DNA from: a virus
DNA: 32,042 nucleotides
Direction: 5' to 3' (one strand)
Virus record (IMG/VR): IMGVR_UViG_3300025127_000134
Location: 1 to 32,042 of that record
Made by a program: the position numbers and the translations under genes. Of this stretch, positions 7,268 through 21,612 are shown piece by piece; position 1 is the first letter of the stretch, and every line of letters begins with the position of its first letter. The notes beneath the pieces are model-generated. The model did not search any database and was not told the DNA's origin. It saw only the letters and a list, made by a program, of their open reading frames with translations.

Positions 7268-10200
7268 ATGAGTCAGTTATTAGAACAGTTTTATGGAATA
7301 AATGTTACTCCTGAGAGTGATGTAACCTCTATTTTACCAGATATAGATAAAGAAGAGTTACAACAAGAATACAAAAAACAATATGAAAAAGAAGCTAATT
7401 CTTGGACTAATAGATTTGCTATTGGTATAGATAATACTCAAGCTTCTTTATTTAAAGGTTTAGATTTAATAGCAGATGTTACAAATAGTGAAGGTTTAAA
7501 ACAATATGCACAAGATGGTATTTTAAAAAATCAACAAGAAGCTGCAGCTAAACCACAACCAACAAGAACAGCTTCATTAACAGAAGCATCAAAAGAAATA
7601 GGAGAAGAAATAGCTGATGATGATTTTTTTGGTGCTGCTTATAGAAGTTTACAATTAATTAAAGATATGAGTGCTGAAGCATTACCTTCTATGTTACCTA
7701 CATTAGGAGCAGTAGGTGCAACTGCAATAGCTTCTCCAATAGTAGGAGCTGTACCTATAGTTGGTGGTGCTGCTGCTATAGCTACTAGATTAGTTGCTCC
7801 CCTTGTACCAGGATTTTTAATGGGTGGTGGTGAGACTTATGAAGAAGCTAAAAAATTAGGAGCTAAAGATAAAGATGCTCAAGTGTTTGGTGTAGCAGGT
7901 GGTGTAGGAATAGGTTTACTTGAGAAGATAGGTGCTGCTCATGCATTAAAAAATTTAATAAATACTGCAGGTAGAGATTATACTGTAAAAAAATTAGGTG
8001 AACAAGTTGGTAAAAAAACAGTAAAACAAGCTGAAGACTTAATGGATGAAATATTAAAAGATGAGAGTTTATTTATTAAAAAAAGTCTAGCTCTTGATGC
8101 AGGTAAAAATGCAGTTAAAGCAGGAGCTGTTGAAGGTGTAACAGAAGGTGCACAAGAAGCTTTACAATTAGGTGCAGCAAGTTTAGCTGCTGATAAAGGT
8201 ATTAATGCATATGATAATGCTGAAGCTGTAAATAGAATAATAGATGCAGCAGCTTTAGGTGTAGTAGGTGGTAAAGTAGCAGGAACAGGTGCAGGTGTAG
8301 TATCTAATTTACAACATAAAGATGTAGTTAATAGAGCTAAAGATAGATTAGAAAAATTAAATGAAATAGAAGAGCTTCGTAAACAAGAAGGAAATATGTC
8401 TGATGAAGAACTTTTAAATACTATTGATGTTAAAGATGAAAAATTTAAACCAAGTTTTATTGATAATTTATTTAGACAATCATTAACACCTCTTGCTCCG
8501 TTAGCAAAAAAAAGTAGTGCAGGTTATGAAATAGTAACTGCATTAAAAAATTATTATGATAATGTTAGTAAAGATGTTGGCACATATGCTAATCCTATGG
8601 ATGAAGCTTTATCTCAAGTAAGAAGAAGTATTAAAGCACCTTTAGTTCAAGGTAGTATTAGTAGTAAAAAAAATAGAGCTTTATATGATATGTTAATGTA
8701 TGGAACAGAATCTAAAGATGCTAAAGTTAGAGGAGCTGCAGAGAAGATTAGAGAACAAATATTAGGTAATCCTTTACAACCACAAATAAAATTAGATAAG
8801 CAGTCTTTATTTAGTTCTATTACAAAACAAAAAGATACTTTAGATAAATTAGAAAAAGCAAAAGCTTCTGGTAAATTAGATATTGCACAATCACAACAAA
8901 TAGAAAATACCTTTAATACATTAAAAAATAATCATATTAATACAGTAAACGATAATCTTAAAAAAGGAATGTCAGAAGAAAAAGCTACAAAAGAAGCTAA
9001 TCAACAGTTAAGACAAGATAAACAGTTTAAAGATTTACAAGATAAAGTTTTAGTAGAATATGAAGGCACAGGTTTATTTGGTAAACTAAATGAGTCTGAT
9101 ATTGATTTAGAATTTAGAAAAAATTATTTTCCTAGAGTATATAAGATAGGTTTACGTGATGTAGTTCTTGGACAATTTGGTATGGGTAAACTTAAAAAAG
9201 CTAGAAAAATATTAATGGAACAAGAAGTAACAGTTCAAAATCCAAGTAATCCTAAACAATCTATAAAAAGAAAAAGAACAAGAGAAGAAGCTGATGAAAT
9301 ATTAGATAATATTAGAGCTAATGATGGCATGTATGTTCCTGATACAGAGATTACAGATTTAGAAGCAAACTTAGATGCTCCTGATAATACAAAAGAAACA
9401 AAAGAAATAACTTCTAATTTAGAAAAACAAAGAGTTATAGATGAAAATACATTTAAAAAATTAGACCAAGCAGGTTTAGTAGAAACAGATGTAAAAAAAG
9501 TATTAGATAAATATATATTACAAGCTGTACAAAGAGATAATGTTAGAAAAATAAAAAAAGTATTAGACCCAAACATACAAAAACTTAGAGAAATAGATGG
9601 TTTAGACAAAATAGAATTAGATAAAATAAAAGAAATATATCAAGCTATACAAAATAGATTTAAACCTATACAAGATGAAAGACTTAAAAAAGCATCTAGA
9701 TTTTATTTAACATATCAATATATGCTAACCTTACCTCTTGCTGCATTAACTGCTTTATCAGAACCTATTATTGTTTTAACAAGAGTAAATCCTAAACATG
9801 CATTACCTGCTTTAGGTAAAGCAACTATAAATACTTTTAGACAAGCTGTTAGAAGTGTATTACCTAAATTTAAAAAGTCAGAACAAGAAAGAGCATTTAT
9901 GGATATACTACAAGGGTATGATGGTACTCTTGCAGAAAGATTAGGAGATATAGCAGGTATAGATGTTACTAGAAGAATAACAGATAGGTTTTTTAAATTT
10001 ACTTTATTAACACAAATAACACAGTTTAGTAGAGATATTAGTTTTCAAGCTGTTGAATCTCAAATGAAAGATGATATTAAATTATTAGCTAAAGCAAAAC
10101 TATTAAATAAAAATGACTTACAAAAATTATTAAAAGAAGAAGGTAAATTATTTGGTCCAAAAATAACTAAAGCAGGATTAATGGAACAACTTGCTAATGC

Positions 10201-10951: not shown

Positions 10952-11203
10952 ATGGCAGATATGACAATGATATGGAACGCAATATTAACAATGGCAATAG
11001 GTGGCTTTCTATGGTGGATACGTTCTACATCTGCTGCTATTAGTAAAGTAAAAGATGATGTTTCAAAAGCAAAAGAAAACATAGCTTTAACGTATGCCAC
11101 TAAAGAAGATGTCAAAGATGACATGACCCAATTAATGCAGAGATTCGATAGACTCGAAAGTAAAATAGATGATATGATAAGGAGACAAGCAAATGGTAAC
11201 TAG
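10952..11203 (+). CDS. Small one-TM coiled-coil protein (holin-like or hemolysin-XhlA-like)
   Basis: An 83-residue protein with one N-terminal membrane segment (about 7-23: WNAILTMAIGGFLWWIR), then a charged coiled coil (DDVSKAKENI; DRLESKIDDMIRR). The layout recalls XhlA-type lysis accessory proteins, but with the helix at the N-terminus instead of the C-terminus. GGAG is 6 bases before the ATG. The last 11 bases overlap the next gene. It lies two genes before the endolysin, so a lysis or membrane-tethering role is possible. No homology can be claimed. Confidence 0.6.
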   Translation: MADMTMIWNAILTMAIGGFLWWIRSTSAAISKVKDDVSKAKENIALTYATKEDVKDDMTQLMQRFDRLESKIDDMIRRQANGN

Positions 11204-12512
11204 AACCCCAAAACAAACACAAGCAGCATTAGCTAAAGCAGCTAGACTATCAGGTCTATCAAGAAATGTTATAGCTGCTCAAGATAGAAATATGAAAACT
11301 TTTTTAGATGAAGTTGAAGGTAAAGAGAAAGCTGCAGTCACTAGAGAAGATATGACTAAGGTAGGTCTTAATCCTAAACTAACAGCAGATTTAACAAAGT
11401 ATTTAAATATGCAAAATAAAAAAGGTAGAAAACCTATTGAAGATGATTTTAGAAAAACTATTAAGGCTCAAGATAAACCTGATGTACCTTTAGTTTCTCC
11501 TAGTGCTAAGAAAAATAAACCTAAAACATCAACTAGAGGTGGTAAAGTTATTTATAGAGGTGGTAGACCTGGAGGTAGAGAGGGTGCACCTAAAAAAACA
11601 TTTGATAAACTTTTACCAGATGCAATGGCAAAACAAAAACAAGATAAAAAATCTAAAAGTATTTTAGGAAAAGTAAAAGAAAGAGTAACTCAAAAGACTG
11701 ATGCTAAACCTTTAAGAGACCCTAAAGAATTATTAAATTTAGTAGGAGGAGCAACAGCTTTAACAAGAGCAGCTCCATCTATTATAGCTTATTTAGCTAG
11801 AAATAAAGGTAAAAAGGTATCTCAAAAGGTTGTTGATTATGTTAGAAAATTAAAAGATAAAAGAAAAGATACTAGCATTAGAACTCAATCAGGTAGTGGT
11901 AAAACTATACGATTAGGTGGTGCAAATTTAAGACAAGTGCAAGGTCCTCCAACTCCAGGAAAAACAACAGGTGCTGCAACTAGAAAAGCTACTCGAAAAA
12001 AAACAAAGGTAAATGAACAAATAGATGTAAATAAAAAAATAAAAGACCAAATTAGTAGAAGAGTAGAAGCTGCTACAAAAAGAAGAGATAAAGCTATTAT
12101 AAAAAATAAGGTAGAAAAGAAACCTGTAGTTAAACAACCTGTTAAAACAACAACTACAACCACTAGAACAGCTAGAGAATCTGCAACAGATAAAGCAGCA
12201 GAAAGAAAGAGACTTGAAGCTTTATTGCAAAATCCTTTAACAGGTAAAAAAAGAAAAGATGAAATTAGAGATGAATTAAAAAATCTTAAAAAAGGTGGGC
12301 TAATTAAAAGAAGTGTAGGTGGTGGACTAAGAGATATACCTGCAGGTAATAAAGGTTTACCTAACTTACCAACTGCTGTTAGAAACAAGATGGGTTTTAA
12401 AAAGAAGGGTGGTATAGTAAGAAGAAGTAAAGGTGGTTTCTTAGGAGCAGGTAAAGCTCTACGTGGACAGGGAGCTGTTATGAGAAAAAAAGGAGGAAAG
12501 ATTGCACTCTAG
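11193..12512 (+). CDS. Highly basic virion-associated protein
   Basis: A 439-residue protein dominated by Lys and Arg, with few aromatic residues. It has low-complexity basic segments (AATRKATRKKTKVNEQ; a run of seven Thr at about 319-325) and a C-terminal tail of repeated KKGG units: KKGGLIKRSVGGG at 366-378, KKGGIVRRSKGGF at 404-416 and RKKGGKIAL at the end. Such charge fits DNA binding or neutralisation inside the capsid, or a disordered scaffold. GGAG sits 8 bases before the ATG. The gene encloses the ribosome-binding site and first codons of the endolysin. The KKGG units resemble a motif in the 541-residue virion protein. Function is unknown. Confidence 0.55.
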   Translation: MVTRTPKQTQAALAKAARLSGLSRNVIAAQDRNMKTFLDEVEGKEKAAVTREDMTKVGLNPKLTADLTKYLNMQNKKGRKPIEDDFRKTIKAQDKPDVPLVSPSAKKNKPKTSTRGGKVIYRGGRPGGREGAPKKTFDKLLPDAMAKQKQDKKSKSILGKVKERVTQKTDAKPLRDPKELLNLVGGATALTRAAPSIIAYLARNKGKKVSQKVVDYVRKLKDKRKDTSIRTQSGSGKTIRLGGANLRQVQGPPTPGKTTGAATRKATRKKTKVNEQIDVNKKIKDQISRRVEAATKRRDKAIIKNKVEKKPVVKQPVKTTTTTTRTARESATDKAAERKRLEALLQNPLTGKKRKDEIRDELKNLKKGGLIKRSVGGGLRDIPAGNKGLPNLPTAVRNKMGFKKKGGIVRRSKGGFLGAGKALRGQGAVMRKKGGKIAL

Positions 12513-14089: not shown

Positions 14090-14493
14090 TTTAAATTATC
14101 CCTCGCTACATTTTTTGATTTTTCAAAGCTACGCATAGCTCCTAATCCTAAAAGTGACATCACTAATGTAATTAATCCCTCTACTTCTAGCTGTGGAGGT
14201 ATTACATCAGGCATCCATATACCTGTAGCCCAAGTTAAAATTGGTCCCACAAAGAACTGCCATAGGAGCCCTAAGCAACAGACCCACATTATTGCAGGGC
14301 GAGCTCCAGAAACAAATAAACTAGGATGTTTAGCTTGTTCTTTGTTTACTTCTATCTGTCCTTTAGCTAGTTCTTGTGCATGTTTCTCTGCCATTGTAGC
14401 TAGGTCATGTGCAAGTTTATTTTTCTGGTCTTTATCTTCTATAAATTTACCTATGAGTTTAGTCGCAGGTGCTATCAGTGCTGTTAGTGCCAT
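14086..14493 (-). CDS. Holin, 3-TM gene-transfer-agent type
   Basis: The 135-residue protein has the layout of the 'holin of 3TMs' family (Pfam PF11351, known from gene transfer agents and alphaproteobacterial phages). It has an N-terminal segment (LTALIAPATKLIGKFI), a charged helix (KLAHDLATMAEKHAQELAKG), then ARPAIMWVCCLGLLWQFFVG and a last hydrophobic helix (VEGLITLVMSLLGLGAMRSF). Family role: it forms pores in the inner membrane that let the endolysin out. GGAG is 8 bases before the ATG. It starts 35 bases inside the methyltransferase gene and ends in an ATGA overlap. Confidence 0.8.
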   Translation of the reverse strand: MALTALIAPATKLIGKFIEDKDQKNKLAHDLATMAEKHAQELAKGQIEVNKEQAKHPSLFVSGARPAIMWVCCLGLLWQFFVGPILTWATGIWMPDVIPPQLEVEGLITLVMSLLGLGAMRSFEKSKNVARDNLK

Positions 14494-15112
14494 CTTTATC
14501 TCTCCTTTTTTTTAAACATATTGCAAAGTTGCCATCTTTACCAGAAAAATATAAGTAAACTTTTAGTGTTTTTTGTTTACCCCAAATTTTACTAAATTTA
14601 TCTAGCCACCATTCTTTTTCTTGTACAGTTACATGTACGTTCTTACCTTTAAATTTACCTTCTTGAAATGTTTTTAATGCTTCTATAGTACATATACTAA
14701 AAAATACTGCTTTATTAGCATAGTTAAATATCTTTTGTATTACCCAATCTAAGTCTTGTTCAGGTATATGTTCCATAACATCTGTACATAAAACAATATC
14801 ATGTTTACCTGTAGGTACTTTATCAAATTGTGGATATGCAGGGTCATATAAAGTATGTGAATCTATACCCCATAAATTTTGTACTGTATCTGCTAGACCT
14901 AATTCTCTATGTCTTTCATCATAAGCACAACCTTTACCACATCCATAATCTAATAATGTTTTACAGTTATTACTTTTTATTATCTTATGTAAAGTAGGAA
15001 CTAAAGGTCTTAAACTTATACCTTTAAATGCTCCCTCATGCTTATGTAATTCTTTATATGAAGTAATTAAATCTTTATAATCCTGTGATGGATTAGCTTT
15101 ATCTATTATCAT
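14459..15112 (-). CDS. Class I SAM-dependent methyltransferase
   Basis: A 217-residue Rossmann-type methyltransferase. Motif I is LLDYGCGKG (about 53-61), the acidic end of strand 2 is WGIDSH (81-86) and motif IV-like IVLCTDVMEHI lies at 106-116. That DVMEH form is typical of Methyltransf_11/23-type enzymes acting on small molecules, sugars or lipids. It lacks the NPPY/DPPY signature of adenine-N6 DNA methylases and the PC motif of cytosine methylases, so DNA modification is unlikely. ATGA links it to the 780-residue sugar-transferase/methyltransferase protein, suggesting one modification pathway. Substrate unknown. Confidence 0.75.
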   Translation of the reverse strand: MIIDKANPSQDYKDLITSYKELHKHEGAFKGISLRPLVPTLHKIIKSNNCKTLLDYGCGKGCAYDERHRELGLADTVQNLWGIDSHTLYDPAYPQFDKVPTGKHDIVLCTDVMEHIPEQDLDWVIQKIFNYANKAVFFSICTIEALKTFQEGKFKGKNVHVTVQEKEWWLDKFSKIWGKQKTLKVYLYFSGKDGNFAICLKKRRDKDGTNSTDSTCD

Positions 15113-17451
15113 GCAAAATCTCTTTCAAAGTTTGGTTGTTTGCTTTTAATATTTTGTGATATATCCCATAGTGCAGATACTAATGTATCTTTACCATGAA
15201 AAGTAATGTCCATCTCCATAACATTTTCATTAAATATTTTTTCACAATCTTGTGCCATAGCAAGAAGCTCACCAGTAGTCCAAAACTTTTTATCTTTAAC
15301 TCCAACTTCAAAATACTTTGGTCTTGGCTCTTCATCTTCAGCACCTGTTGTTTCTTTCTTTTGTTCTGCTGTAGGTTCTTCCATACAAGAGTCATATCCA
15401 AATAAATCAAAGTATCTAAAACCCATAGTATGCATAATACCTATAGCTCTCATAGCTGCACAAGTACCACCAGTAATAAGTGTAGCACCTTTTGGTATAC
15501 CTATATCCTCTCTAAGTGTTACTTGATTATTTGTTATACCTCTTTTTCTTTCTTCTTCATCTCGTAGTGATTCTGTAAATGCATGCCAACCATGTATATC
15601 TGCACCTTTTTCTCTTAAATATTCTGTTACAGATGGGTCAGTCATAGAAGCAACAAAAAATTTAGTAGAAGGTTCTATAGTTTTAAATAAATCTTTTCTA
15701 ACTATACCATGTGTGCTAGTTCCTGTAATAGGTCTAGGGTCTAATACAATACAAGCCCAAGGTTTTATATTATGTTCTAGCAAGTTAGGATAAGAATGTT
15801 TTACAGCTATTACTTTAGTATGAGGATTATTTTTTATATGTGCATGTAAAGCTTTATAATCTGTATAAGGTCCACCAGATACTATAGTAGCACTTTGTTT
15901 ATGAAAAGGATATTTACCTAACCATTTATCATCTTTAATTAATTTTAAATTAGCTCTAATATTATTACGTATATAATCTTTAGGTACACAATCTCTAGGA
16001 TTAACTACAATCGGTACATTTAATAATTCTCTTGGTATTTTTGGTAGTTTATTATCATGCACAACACAAGCTAAATGTGTATGTCCACCACCTTTTACCT
16101 TGTCTGCAGATGGTAATATATTTCTTCTAGTTTTTTTATCTAATTTTTCTATAACTTTATTAACACCTTTAAATTTATCTTGAACATCATTGCCTTCTTT
16201 GTCTGCTAAAAAGTAATGGTCAAGAACTACTACAGGCACATGCTTAACTGCATTATAATCACTTTGTGCTGTCTTAATACTATTACCACCACCAACTAAT
16301 GCAAAATCAATTTCTAATAAAAAATCAAAAAGATTATCCACATACAAAGTTTCTTTTGTATTACCTTGATTTAGAACATATTGAAACTCTTTGTTTTTTT
16401 CTTTCATCTTTGCAGCAAAATCTGTTAGCCTTTTTTCTACTGCAGATAATTTATTATGTGCTTTTACATTAAATTCTTCTAAATCTGTTTCAGTGGTTGC
16501 TTCTTCAAACAAATCAAAACCATAATAAACAACTTTATCTGTATGTTCAAAAGCAGCTAGTGCCATTTCTATAGCACGACCACCATTCCATGTACCAGTT
16601 TCTAATATAGTTTTAGGTTTAAAGTGTCTTATAATATCAGCTAATTGTTTATATCTACCTGGTATAATATCAGGTGATGTTTCATCAGATAAATTAAATA
16701 TACGATTACCTTTACTATCTCTAAGTGGTAGCAAAGAAGGGTCTTGTACACCTTGTAAATGTAAGATATAATCTTTTACTTTTTCACCTATATCTAATAC
16801 TTTCATACCATGTGCTTTATAAATATTTAATAATCTTTCTGTTATAAAAGCATCATGCCATTCTCTATATTGAAATACTTCTCCAGATATGTAAGCACCT
16901 TGTAAATCTCCAAGTAAATCTAATGCAGGTTGTTTACTTAAATTAAATGCCATAAAAGAAGCATCAATATTACTTGTACCATCATCATATTTTCTTACAC
17001 CAGAATATGCAATATCTACATTGTCTGGTAACATTTTTAATACATCTTGTAATACAAATCTTTTTTGTGTGTAAGAGTCTGCATCAATCCATATTAACCA
17101 TCCTGCATCTGCATCTTTTTCTGCTAACTCAAATGCATGTTCTGTTAAAGCAAAAACTTTATGACACCATTTTAATGAGTCAAGTTTTATATTATAAGGT
17201 ATTTGATTACCTTCAGTTCCATCATGTTGAGAATTATTATCTTTAAAAGTATTATAATTTTTTAATGTAGATAAGTCTTTATAAGATATAGAATTATTAG
17301 GTAGTGAATAACTATCTATTTTACAATCATGATAATAACAAGTTAATGGTAATTTAGGTTCCCACTGCTCGTTAACTGAATTTAAAAAATGATGACCTAT
17401 ATTTTTTAATATAGTTTCATTAAAAGATGTTATGAAATTTACTTTTCTCAT
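15109..17451 (-). CDS. Three-domain protein: glycosyltransferase-like, methyltransferase-like and DUF115/MptE-like
   Basis: The 780-residue protein seems to join three enzymes. Residues about 1-235 look like a GT-A glycosyltransferase, with WLIWIDADSYTQKRF giving a D-x-D at 123-125 and WHDAFITERLL near 198-208. Residues about 262-415 resemble a class I methyltransferase or cephalosporin-hydroxylase-like fold, with ILETGTWNGGRAIEMA (282-297) and the strand-2 acid in YYGFDLFEE. Residues about 505-770 match the DUF115/MAF_flag10 (MptE-like) pattern, with SATIVSGGPYTDY (520-532), IVLDPRP (568-574) and LITGGTCAAMRAIGIMHTMG (658-677). ATGA overlaps bind it to both neighbours. Domain names rest on motifs; the substrate (virion, capsule or lipid) is unknown. 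Confidence 0.7.
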   Translation of the reverse strand: MRKVNFITSFNETILKNIGHHFLNSVNEQWEPKLPLTCYYHDCKIDSYSLPNNSISYKDLSTLKNYNTFKDNNSQHDGTEGNQIPYNIKLDSLKWCHKVFALTEHAFELAEKDADAGWLIWIDADSYTQKRFVLQDVLKMLPDNVDIAYSGVRKYDDGTSNIDASFMAFNLSKQPALDLLGDLQGAYISGEVFQYREWHDAFITERLLNIYKAHGMKVLDIGEKVKDYILHLQGVQDPSLLPLRDSKGNRIFNLSDETSPDIIPGRYKQLADIIRHFKPKTILETGTWNGGRAIEMALAAFEHTDKVVYYGFDLFEEATTETDLEEFNVKAHNKLSAVEKRLTDFAAKMKEKNKEFQYVLNQGNTKETLYVDNLFDFLLEIDFALVGGGNSIKTAQSDYNAVKHVPVVVLDHYFLADKEGNDVQDKFKGVNKVIEKLDKKTRRNILPSADKVKGGGHTHLACVVHDNKLPKIPRELLNVPIVVNPRDCVPKDYIRNNIRANLKLIKDDKWLGKYPFHKQSATIVSGGPYTDYKALHAHIKNNPHTKVIAVKHSYPNLLEHNIKPWACIVLDPRPITGTSTHGIVRKDLFKTIEPSTKFFVASMTDPSVTEYLREKGADIHGWHAFTESLRDEEERKRGITNNQVTLREDIGIPKGATLITGGTCAAMRAIGIMHTMGFRYFDLFGYDSCMEEPTAEQKKETTGAEDEEPRPKYFEVGVKDKKFWTTGELLAMAQDCEKIFNENVMEMDITFHGKDTLVSALWDISQNIKSKQPNFERDFA

Positions 17452-18242
17452 ATTAGATAATCCTCTTTATATGGCAGTAAATTATTATATTGTAACCATT
17501 TAGCATCATTGCACCACTCTACAGCATATTTATTATCTTGATTTCTTTTACCACCCCAAGACTTAAACCAAGGTCCACCTGTTGTAAAATGCACATTCTT
17601 AGCTTCTAAATCTTCTGGTGAATGCCCATCTAACCAGTTCCATTCTTCAGGTATAGTTCCTATATCTGCTTCTTTATCTGGTAACCATTGAAAAGTATGT
17701 AGCCATCTACCAGGTTTAGTATTTATTTCATCTATAGTTAGTTTTTCATTGTAATGATGCTCACAATTAAACATCATAAGACTAGACCAGTTCTTTCTTT
17801 TATAAGGTTCTTGTGCTTTACCATCCATTTTAACACCTTTTTCTGGTTCATACTTATGTTTAACACACCATAAAGGATAATAACTATCTCTACACATTTC
17901 AAATAGTTCTGATATGTCTGTTCTTATATACATATCACAATCCATATATAAGGCTAACCCTTCATACATATTTAAATGTGGTACTAAAAATCTTGTAAAA
18001 GAAAAATCTGTAGAAAAAGGTCTACCATCTATCTCATCATATTCTTGTCCATCTAATTTATTAGATTTTCTTCTGTATAATCCCATGCGTTCCATTACAT
18101 TTTTCTTTATAGGAACAACACGCACACCTTTTGTAGCTATTCTTTCTATTGAAAATTTAAGAACATGATAAGCAGTTTTTTCTCTTTCATCATATCCTAT
18201 ATAAACTGTATTAGTCATTTCATTCTTTACTTTTGTACTCAT
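17448..18242 (-). CDS. Glycosyltransferase, GT8-like GT-A fold
   Basis: A 264-residue enzyme starting with a strand typical of GT-A sugar transferases (VYIGYDEREKTAYHVLKFSI). The metal and nucleotide-sugar binding D-x-D is LYMDCDMYIRTDI (about 98-110, D101 and D103). VHFTTGGPWFKSW (about 216-228) resembles the conserved C-terminal His-Gly region of GT8-like enzymes. AAGGA lies 6 bases before the ATG at 18242; a second in-frame ATG (18218) also fits just before the fold. It is first in the modification cassette, just downstream of the hsp20 terminator, so its transcript must start or read through there. Confidence 0.75.
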   Translation of the reverse strand: MSTKVKNEMTNTVYIGYDEREKTAYHVLKFSIERIATKGVRVVPIKKNVMERMGLYRRKSNKLDGQEYDEIDGRPFSTDFSFTRFLVPHLNMYEGLALYMDCDMYIRTDISELFEMCRDSYYPLWCVKHKYEPEKGVKMDGKAQEPYKRKNWSSLMMFNCEHHYNEKLTIDEINTKPGRWLHTFQWLPDKEADIGTIPEEWNWLDGHSPEDLEAKNVHFTTGGPWFKSWGGKRNQDNKYAVEWCNDAKWLQYNNLLPYKEDYLI

Positions 18243-21068: not shown

Positions 21069-21407
21069 CTATTTACTGTTTAATACTGCATTAATTTTTT
21101 GTCTAACAAATTTAATTTCTTTAGAGTGTATCACTTTATAAGCAAATTGTCTAGTATAATTTGAACTTAATCCTGCTTGTTCACAAACAAATTCAAAGTT
21201 ATCACATGTAACTCCTACACTACAAAAAAACCAAGCCACTGCTCTGTTCCTATTTAAAATAGAAATAGATGATTCTTTTTTTTCTTTAGGTTTTGTTGCA
21301 TCTAATAAAGCTTGAAATATAACAGCAAGAAATAATTTTCTTTCTGGTGACTCACTTTTCTTTACAGTTGCTAAAACTGAAACCTCTAAATCAATTGTCC
21401 TTTTCAT
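21069..21407 (-). CDS. Conserved small protein, possible DNA-binding
   Basis: A 112-residue basic protein. The central block NRNRAVAWFFCSVG, then FEFVCEQAGLSSNYTRQFAY, resembles alphaproteobacterial phage proteins with an A-x-x-W-[FL] helix followed by F-x-x-[VI]-C-x-x-x-G-[LI]-x-x-x-x-[VT]-R. That second part looks like a helix-turn-helix. A regulatory or replication-accessory role is possible. The start overlaps the 73-residue gene by 17 bases. The match is to a pattern I recall, not to a named family. Confidence 0.55.
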   Translation of the reverse strand: MKRTIDLEVSVLATVKKSESPERKLFLAVIFQALLDATKPKEKKESSISILNRNRAVAWFFCSVGVTCDNFEFVCEQAGLSSNYTRQFAYKVIHSKEIKFVRQKINAVLNSK

Positions 21408-21612
21408 TATTTACTATAGTATGTAACATCTCTATTGCATCTGTAGCTTCAGATGCTTTGTGTACTAATTCAATTACATCTTCTACAATCTTAGGATGTT
21501 CTCCTACACCTACAGGATTGTTAAGATGTATCTTAATATTTGCTAAAGCTTTATCTCTCTCTGCTGTATAGTGAGACATAACTGCTTCTAATATATGTGC
21601 TTTTATTGCCAT
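21391..21612 (-). CDS. Conserved phage protein with GVGEHP motif
   Basis: A 73-residue, probably all-helical protein: YTAERDKALANIKIHLNNPV, then GVGEHPKIVEDVIELVHKAS. The pattern (A-x-x-x-A-x-x-N-x-x-x-Y/H-L-N-x-P-V-G-V-G-E-H-P) recurs in marine phages of several types, where I know of no assigned function. AAGGAA lies before the ATG. It sits between the exonuclease and the DUF3310/reductase pair. Confidence 0.6.
   Translation of the reverse strand: MAIKAHILEAVMSHYTAERDKALANIKIHLNNPVGVGEHPKIVEDVIELVHKASEATDAIEMLHTIVNNEKDN

Follow-up and report, generated by a model that had tools for sequence, protein, structure and literature searches.

The stretch of DNA analyzed here, all 32,042 nucleotides of IMG/VR virus record IMGVR_UViG_3300025127_000134 (hereafter, the window), carries three adjoining genes on its minus strand, the central one of which encodes a fusion protein of three domains. 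These genes, and the features within the fusion, are as follows:

17448..18242, minus strand: GT8-like glycosyltransferase gene, 264 aa (Glyco_transf_8 at E 0.0028, sub-threshold), upstream of the fusion gene, with a 4-bp ATGA overlap
15109..17451, minus strand: three-domain fusion protein, 780 aa (open reading frame; 190 homologs with all three parts; AlphaFold2 pLDDT 86.9)
16747..17451, minus strand: GT-A glycosyltransferase domain of GT6-like fold, residues 1-235 (Foldseek 5nre, E 3.1e-8; DxD at 17077-17085)
16057..16668, minus strand: class I methyltransferase-like domain, residues 262-465 (Foldseek 3tfw, E 1.1e-6; motif I ExGxWNGG at 16579-16602)
16216..16293, minus strand: position of the MycE/TylF-type catalytic site, residues 387-412 (GGGN...DH, not DGGH...DD, in an alignment of the 190 homologs)
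15136..16014, minus strand: DUF115/MptE-like domain, Maf-like, residues 480-772 (PF01973 at E 2.5e-9; Foldseek Maf 5mu5, archaeal HPPK 8sd5)
14459..15112, minus strand: stand-alone methyltransferase gene, 217 aa (Methyltransf_23 at E 3.8e-8), downstream of the fusion gene, with a 4-bp overlap

With 4-bp overlaps at both junctions of the fusion gene, the three-gene cassette is probably translationally coupled. A GT8-like gene adjoins the fusion gene upstream in nearly all relatives, the conserved order being RNR - (Hsp20) - GT8-like - fusion - methyltransferase - holin - terminase small subunit, and the relative of the GT8-like protein in phage Mosig matches Glyco_transf_8 at 2.7e-7. In part of the clade to which the window belongs (L004 at 7791-7988, L018, L101 and L017), a conserved open reading frame of ~65 aa separates the fusion from the GT8-like gene; the window has a relative of it, with 44% identity, at 21424-21594, within the open reading frame 21391-21612. 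The PolA of the window phage is nearest to those of Pelagibacter phages HTVC115P and HTVC103P/104P, and a head protein is like those of HTVC023P-type phages and others, and these two likenesses together suggest a podovirus-like phage of an uncultured marine group. From its gene content, the phage looks lytic.

The fusion reading frame starts with ATG and runs on the minus strand, a detail absent from the first-pass annotation of this DNA, which had proposed three folds in one protein. The motifs on which it relied are present: the GT-A D-x-D motif as D123-A-D125; the E-T-G-T-W-N-G-G motif at residues 284-291, one residue later than the 283-290 originally given; and DUF115-type motifs in the form of SGGP (525-528), VKH (550-552), LDPR (570-573) and TLITGGTCAAMR (657-668). 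In a Pfam scan of the protein, solely MptE-like/DUF115 (PF01973) passes its cutoff, with GT2, Methyltransf_24 and TylF as sub-threshold matches. When profiles built from the family or from its parts were searched against PDB sequences, only marginal matches came back, so that a fold search was needed. An AlphaFold2 model was built from 37 sequences; its pTM of 0.59 makes the arrangement of the domains relative to each other uncertain. Compared as a whole against the PDB with Foldseek, this model finds GT6 enzymes first, with Maf 5mu5 (5.7e-7) and the O-methyltransferase 3tfw (1.1e-6) among the best matches, and the three predicted folds, a GT6-like GT-A, a class I O-methyltransferase and a Maf/MptE (DUF115) fold, bear out the three-part make-up that had been proposed.

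That the reading frame arose by chance is ruled out by its 190 homologs and by purifying selection, and the joining of two genes by misassembly is ruled out by the recurrence of the fusion on independent contigs. The sole split member (L087, 2610-4925) has one in-frame stop between its methyltransferase and DUF115 parts, which may be a sequencing error. The fusion is a genuine, widespread and well-conserved three-domain protein. In three overlapping scans of IMG/VR, the confirmed relatives numbered 44, at least 531 and 305, and the 190 homologous reading frames that were fetched match all three parts at full length and in the same order, the order for which a search of marine phage genomes had been suggested. 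No match to the fusion was found at E 1e-5 among GenBank phages (50,697 records), where at relaxed E-values the GT part alone weakly matches one podovirus and Pelagibacter phage Mosig; the DUF115 part of a relative matched nothing in the same phages, and apart from these results there was one chance-level match at E 7.

Among one-per-species genomes, there is one three-domain match (L119), on a 33-kb contig that belongs to a Sneathiella MAG and has the phage gene order, as well as a two-domain GT-MT protein in a Thalassobaculaceae MAG (L120), which, used as a query against viral contigs, finds two loci only. In 385 alphaproteobacterial genomes the pieces were found separately and the three-domain protein never. 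Two single DUF115 genes in such genomes lie, respectively, near a terminase gene (L213) and near probable phage structural genes (L218); the former, at L213 6485-9056, is a single-domain gene beside two sulfotransferase genes and the terminase, and constitutes another phage-like glycan island. In two alphaproteobacterial genomes of 1.2-1.3 Mb (L214 and L215), a stand-alone Methyltransf_24 relative sits beside ribonucleotide reductase genes; an RNR gene precedes the phage cassette as well.

The best match in the Foldseek viral library is UniProt A0A6J7X5Q0, a 714-aa protein of an uncultured Caudovirales phage, whose alignment spans the whole fusion, all three domains included, at 29% identity (E 1.4e-61). 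The domain order is thus not unique to this family, although A0A6J7X5Q0 is named merely 'Methyltransferase domain containing protein', with no functional description. A looser parallel is offered by the glycan island (127-131 kb) of Pelagibacter phage Mosig EXVC030M, in which a stand-alone GT-A homolog lies beside a GT8-like gene and methyltransferases. There, however, the genes are separate, as opposed to the single gene of the fusion, the methyltransferases are of FkbM type, and a sulfotransferase is present; PF01973 was not found in the eight proteins of the island that were scanned. Literature searches on DUF115 with phage, phage-encoded glycosyltransferases, pterin diphosphokinase with phage, and GT6 with phage found no description of the three-domain protein.

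For the N-terminal domain, the best PDB folds are those of GT6 enzymes (alpha-1,3-GalT and the ABO transferases), which also have the DxD motif in common with it; at ~12% identity, this likeness is one of fold only. Pfam GT6 is absent both among matches of the window protein to E 1 and from the 25 families most matched by 42 members. YREWHD is conserved in the fusion GT part, but, judged by sequence alone, the next residue is mostly G, A, Y or S and not a conserved Glu such as the catalytic one that follows W-H-D in GT6 enzymes. Loss of GT catalytic residues across homologs, which would have told against the first-pass annotation, is not seen: D123 and D125 are kept in 105 of 106 aligned sequences. 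In the Sneathiella protein (L119, 10001-12346), N-x-N replaces D-x-D, a change that would point to a glycosyltransferase that is inactive or works independently of metal.

For the C-terminal domain, the relation to Maf and MptE recognized at first pass is borne out by both family and fold. Its PF01973 match, above cutoff, covers residues 500-691, and the same family matches 40 of 42 family members, at best 7e-19. Modeled alone (residues 466-772; pLDDT 90.3, pTM 0.87), it finds Maf 5mu5 at 2.3e-7, followed by M. jannaschii HPPK 8sd5 at 8.6e-6 (TM-score 0.64 by target length for 8sd5_C), SteA and thiamin pyrophosphokinase, with a sialyltransferase lower. Residues S525, G527, V550-K551-H552, D571-P572-R573, S579-T580-H581, T657 and G661-G662-T663-C664 do not vary among the 106 aligned sequences. 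The window protein has no match to the NCBIfam PseD model; a relative from the sister clade (L033) does match it, at 1.8e-9 and 36.7 bits, far below the cutoff of 670.

Maf/PseD enzymes transfer CMP-nonulosonate to Ser/Thr residues of flagellin. They share the PF01973 fold with the fusion, and in Maf a Rossmann domain with weak methyltransferase motifs precedes the PF01973 domain (PMC11339370). Unlike Maf, the fusion adds an N-terminal GT-A domain, has a recognizable Methyltransf_24 domain where that of Maf is degenerate, and does without the C-terminal helical (FliS/flagellin-like) domain, its model ending instead in a short mixed strand/helix segment (713-771). The phage protein therefore resembles a Maf with a GT-A domain in front and without the helical C-terminal domain; no flagellar genes were found in the window. 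MptE, the 6-hydroxymethylpterin diphosphokinase represented by 8sd5, likewise has its Pfam family and fold in common with the DUF115 part, but is a single-domain archaeal enzyme, whereas the phage domain is fused to GT and MT parts with no pterin genes in view.

In the middle domain, Methyltransf_24 reaches E 9e-14 in family members, and fold and SAM motif are shared with the MycE/TylF sugar O-methyltransferases (Methyltransf_24, TylF). SAM motif I residues E284, G286, W288, N289 and G291 are invariant in 106 sequences, as is D313. The MycE/ThnM1 active site consists of D275, H278 and D304, of which the two Asp residues bind Mg (PMC9275233), and the D-x-x-H spacing of MycE agrees with the DGGH of the fusion family. 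Two clades part at this site. The sister clade keeps DGGH...DD intact in 82 of 82 sequences; in the window's clade (hereafter, the altered clade) the site reads G-G/S-G-N/D...D-H/N in 108 of 108, all three catalytic positions being replaced, with G387, N390 and H412 as the window's equivalents of D275, H278 and D304 (an equivalence drawn from motif and family matches rather than superposition). D411 is invariant within the altered clade. Both outgroups, L120 and L125, have DGGH, and in a tree rooted with them the change occurred once. Catalytic loss in the MT part, named at first pass as grounds for rejecting that reading, is thus found throughout the window's clade and not in its sister. Since a SAM-type Rossmann site is kept while the MycE/TylF catalytic residues are gone, the middle domain of the altered clade most likely has no catalytic role and acts as a scaffold or binds a ligand, although, given the conserved motif I, an altered yet active methyltransferase is possible.

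The same division is followed by a second character. A separate METHYLTRANSFERASE (14459-15112 in the window), the stand-alone methyltransferase, is present at 91 of the 91 altered-clade loci with room for it, where it abuts or overlaps the fusion gene, as opposed to 0 of 65 loci of the DGGH clade. Dereplication at 95% identity leaves the contrast as it was (50/50 versus 0/31), as does restriction to whole contigs (9/9 versus 0/11); at 31 of 31 dereplicated DGGH loci, less than 100 nt lies between the end of the fusion and the start of the terminase small subunit. The idea that sister-clade genomes carry the stand-alone gene elsewhere was unsupported in the 11 contigs checked. The encoded protein keeps the SAM motif DYGxGK and a DVxEH motif, and could act on another substrate. 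Replacement of the MT site and gain of the MT gene fall on one branch as one event, and may be unrelated; because the pattern, though strong, reflects a single event, causation is something we infer.

In the closest pairs of both clades, dN is well below dS in each of the three parts of the fusion; selection therefore maintains the altered MT domain, which is not decaying. Exchange is apparent as well. Over most of 12.4-15.7 kb, L003 and the window share 94-100% identity; over ~15.7-18.4 kb, where the GT8 gene and the half of the fusion with its MT and GT parts lie, identity drops to 77-90%; the Hsp20 gene was not found in L003 at this divergent block. The block looks like a recombination that swapped the GT/MT half between close phages, as would fit a variable-sugar role. 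A 439-aa open reading frame (11193-12512) precedes the M15 endolysin and shares 68% identity with its counterpart in L002, against ~97-100% between L002 and the window elsewhere; it is possibly a variable fiber or receptor-binding protein.

With domain order, folds, conservation, residue replacement, methyltransferase association and gene overlap as the observations, what we infer is the role of the cassette, its acceptor, its sugar and its activity. The best explanation, to which we give about an even chance, is a glycan-modification cassette made up of the GT8-like glycosyltransferase, the GT-A/MT-like/Maf-like fusion and a stand-alone methyltransferase doing methyl capping. The GT8-like enzyme and the GT-A domain would add sugars, presumably from nucleotide-sugar donors; the Maf-like DUF115 domain would attach a nucleotide-activated sugar to an acceptor, or extend a chain; and the stand-alone enzyme (14459-15112) would cap with methyl, a function putatively moved from the fused domain. 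Set against the holin control, none of the three proteins shows a comparable membrane-like segment, which makes a cytoplasmic acceptor probable. The first choice is a virion protein, in view of the apparent solubility of the enzymes and the action of Maf on protein; the other is a host glycolipid or LPS-core precursor. The glycan-modifying role proposed at first pass is accordingly supported by the fold and family matches. Its methylated sugar fares less simply, methylation by the fused domain being doubtful in the window's clade and the neighboring gene a likelier source of any such methyl group.

The main rival concerns the acceptor. The same enzymes might target the host envelope, modifying an LPS core or surface polysaccharide precursor, so that receptors are changed and other phages excluded. 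Glycosyltransferases are known to serve in phage serotype-conversion operons, the GT half is swapped between close phages, and GT, MT or sulfotransferase genes occur together in the island of Mosig and in proviral islands of alphaproteobacteria; on the other hand, proteins lacking membrane-like segments would not perform gtr-type membrane transfer, and a phage that looks lytic would have less time for conversion. On balance, we hold this reading to be rather doubtful. Less probable still, in our estimation, is that all three domains are active, the fused MT methylating the sugar without metal or through some altered mechanism while the stand-alone MT does something else. The invariance of motif I, D313 and D411 in the altered clade and the purifying selection on the MT part speak for this, but the MycE equivalents are replaced in every altered-clade sequence, and another methyltransferase is always next door.

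Quite improbable, finally, is a cassette that hypermodifies DNA, a pterin or a nucleotide compound rather than a glycan, with DUF115 as an MptE-like pyrophosphokinase acting on a hydroxymethyl group. Archaeal HPPK and thiamin pyrophosphokinase are indeed among the fold matches, and the cassette follows ribonucleotide reductase and replication genes. Against this, the best fold match is Maf, the sister-clade relative matches PseD, no pyrimidine hydroxymethylase or pterin gene occurs among the 20 window proteins scanned, and the two adjacent GT-like parts point to sugars. To return to the glycan cassette, its evolution may be put more pointedly, if only as an unlikely conjecture: the fusion would be a single-chain glycan assembly enzyme whose fused MT turned into a conserved non-catalytic SAM-fold domain when the separate MT joined the operon.

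Hundreds of marine phage contigs carry the fusion, while GenBank phages match nothing of it beyond its GT part, and that weakly, which points to a large uncultured group of phages that may modify their virions or their hosts with an uncharacterized sugar. The paired clades would amount to a natural experiment on the relocation of a catalytic step, out of a fused domain and into a gene of its own, and may as such help to account for the methyltransferase-like domain of Maf enzymes. If the conjecture of a fused MT turned non-catalytic is true, the fusion would be a living analog, or an intermediate, of how Maf gained its degenerate methyltransferase-like domain before the transferase domain.
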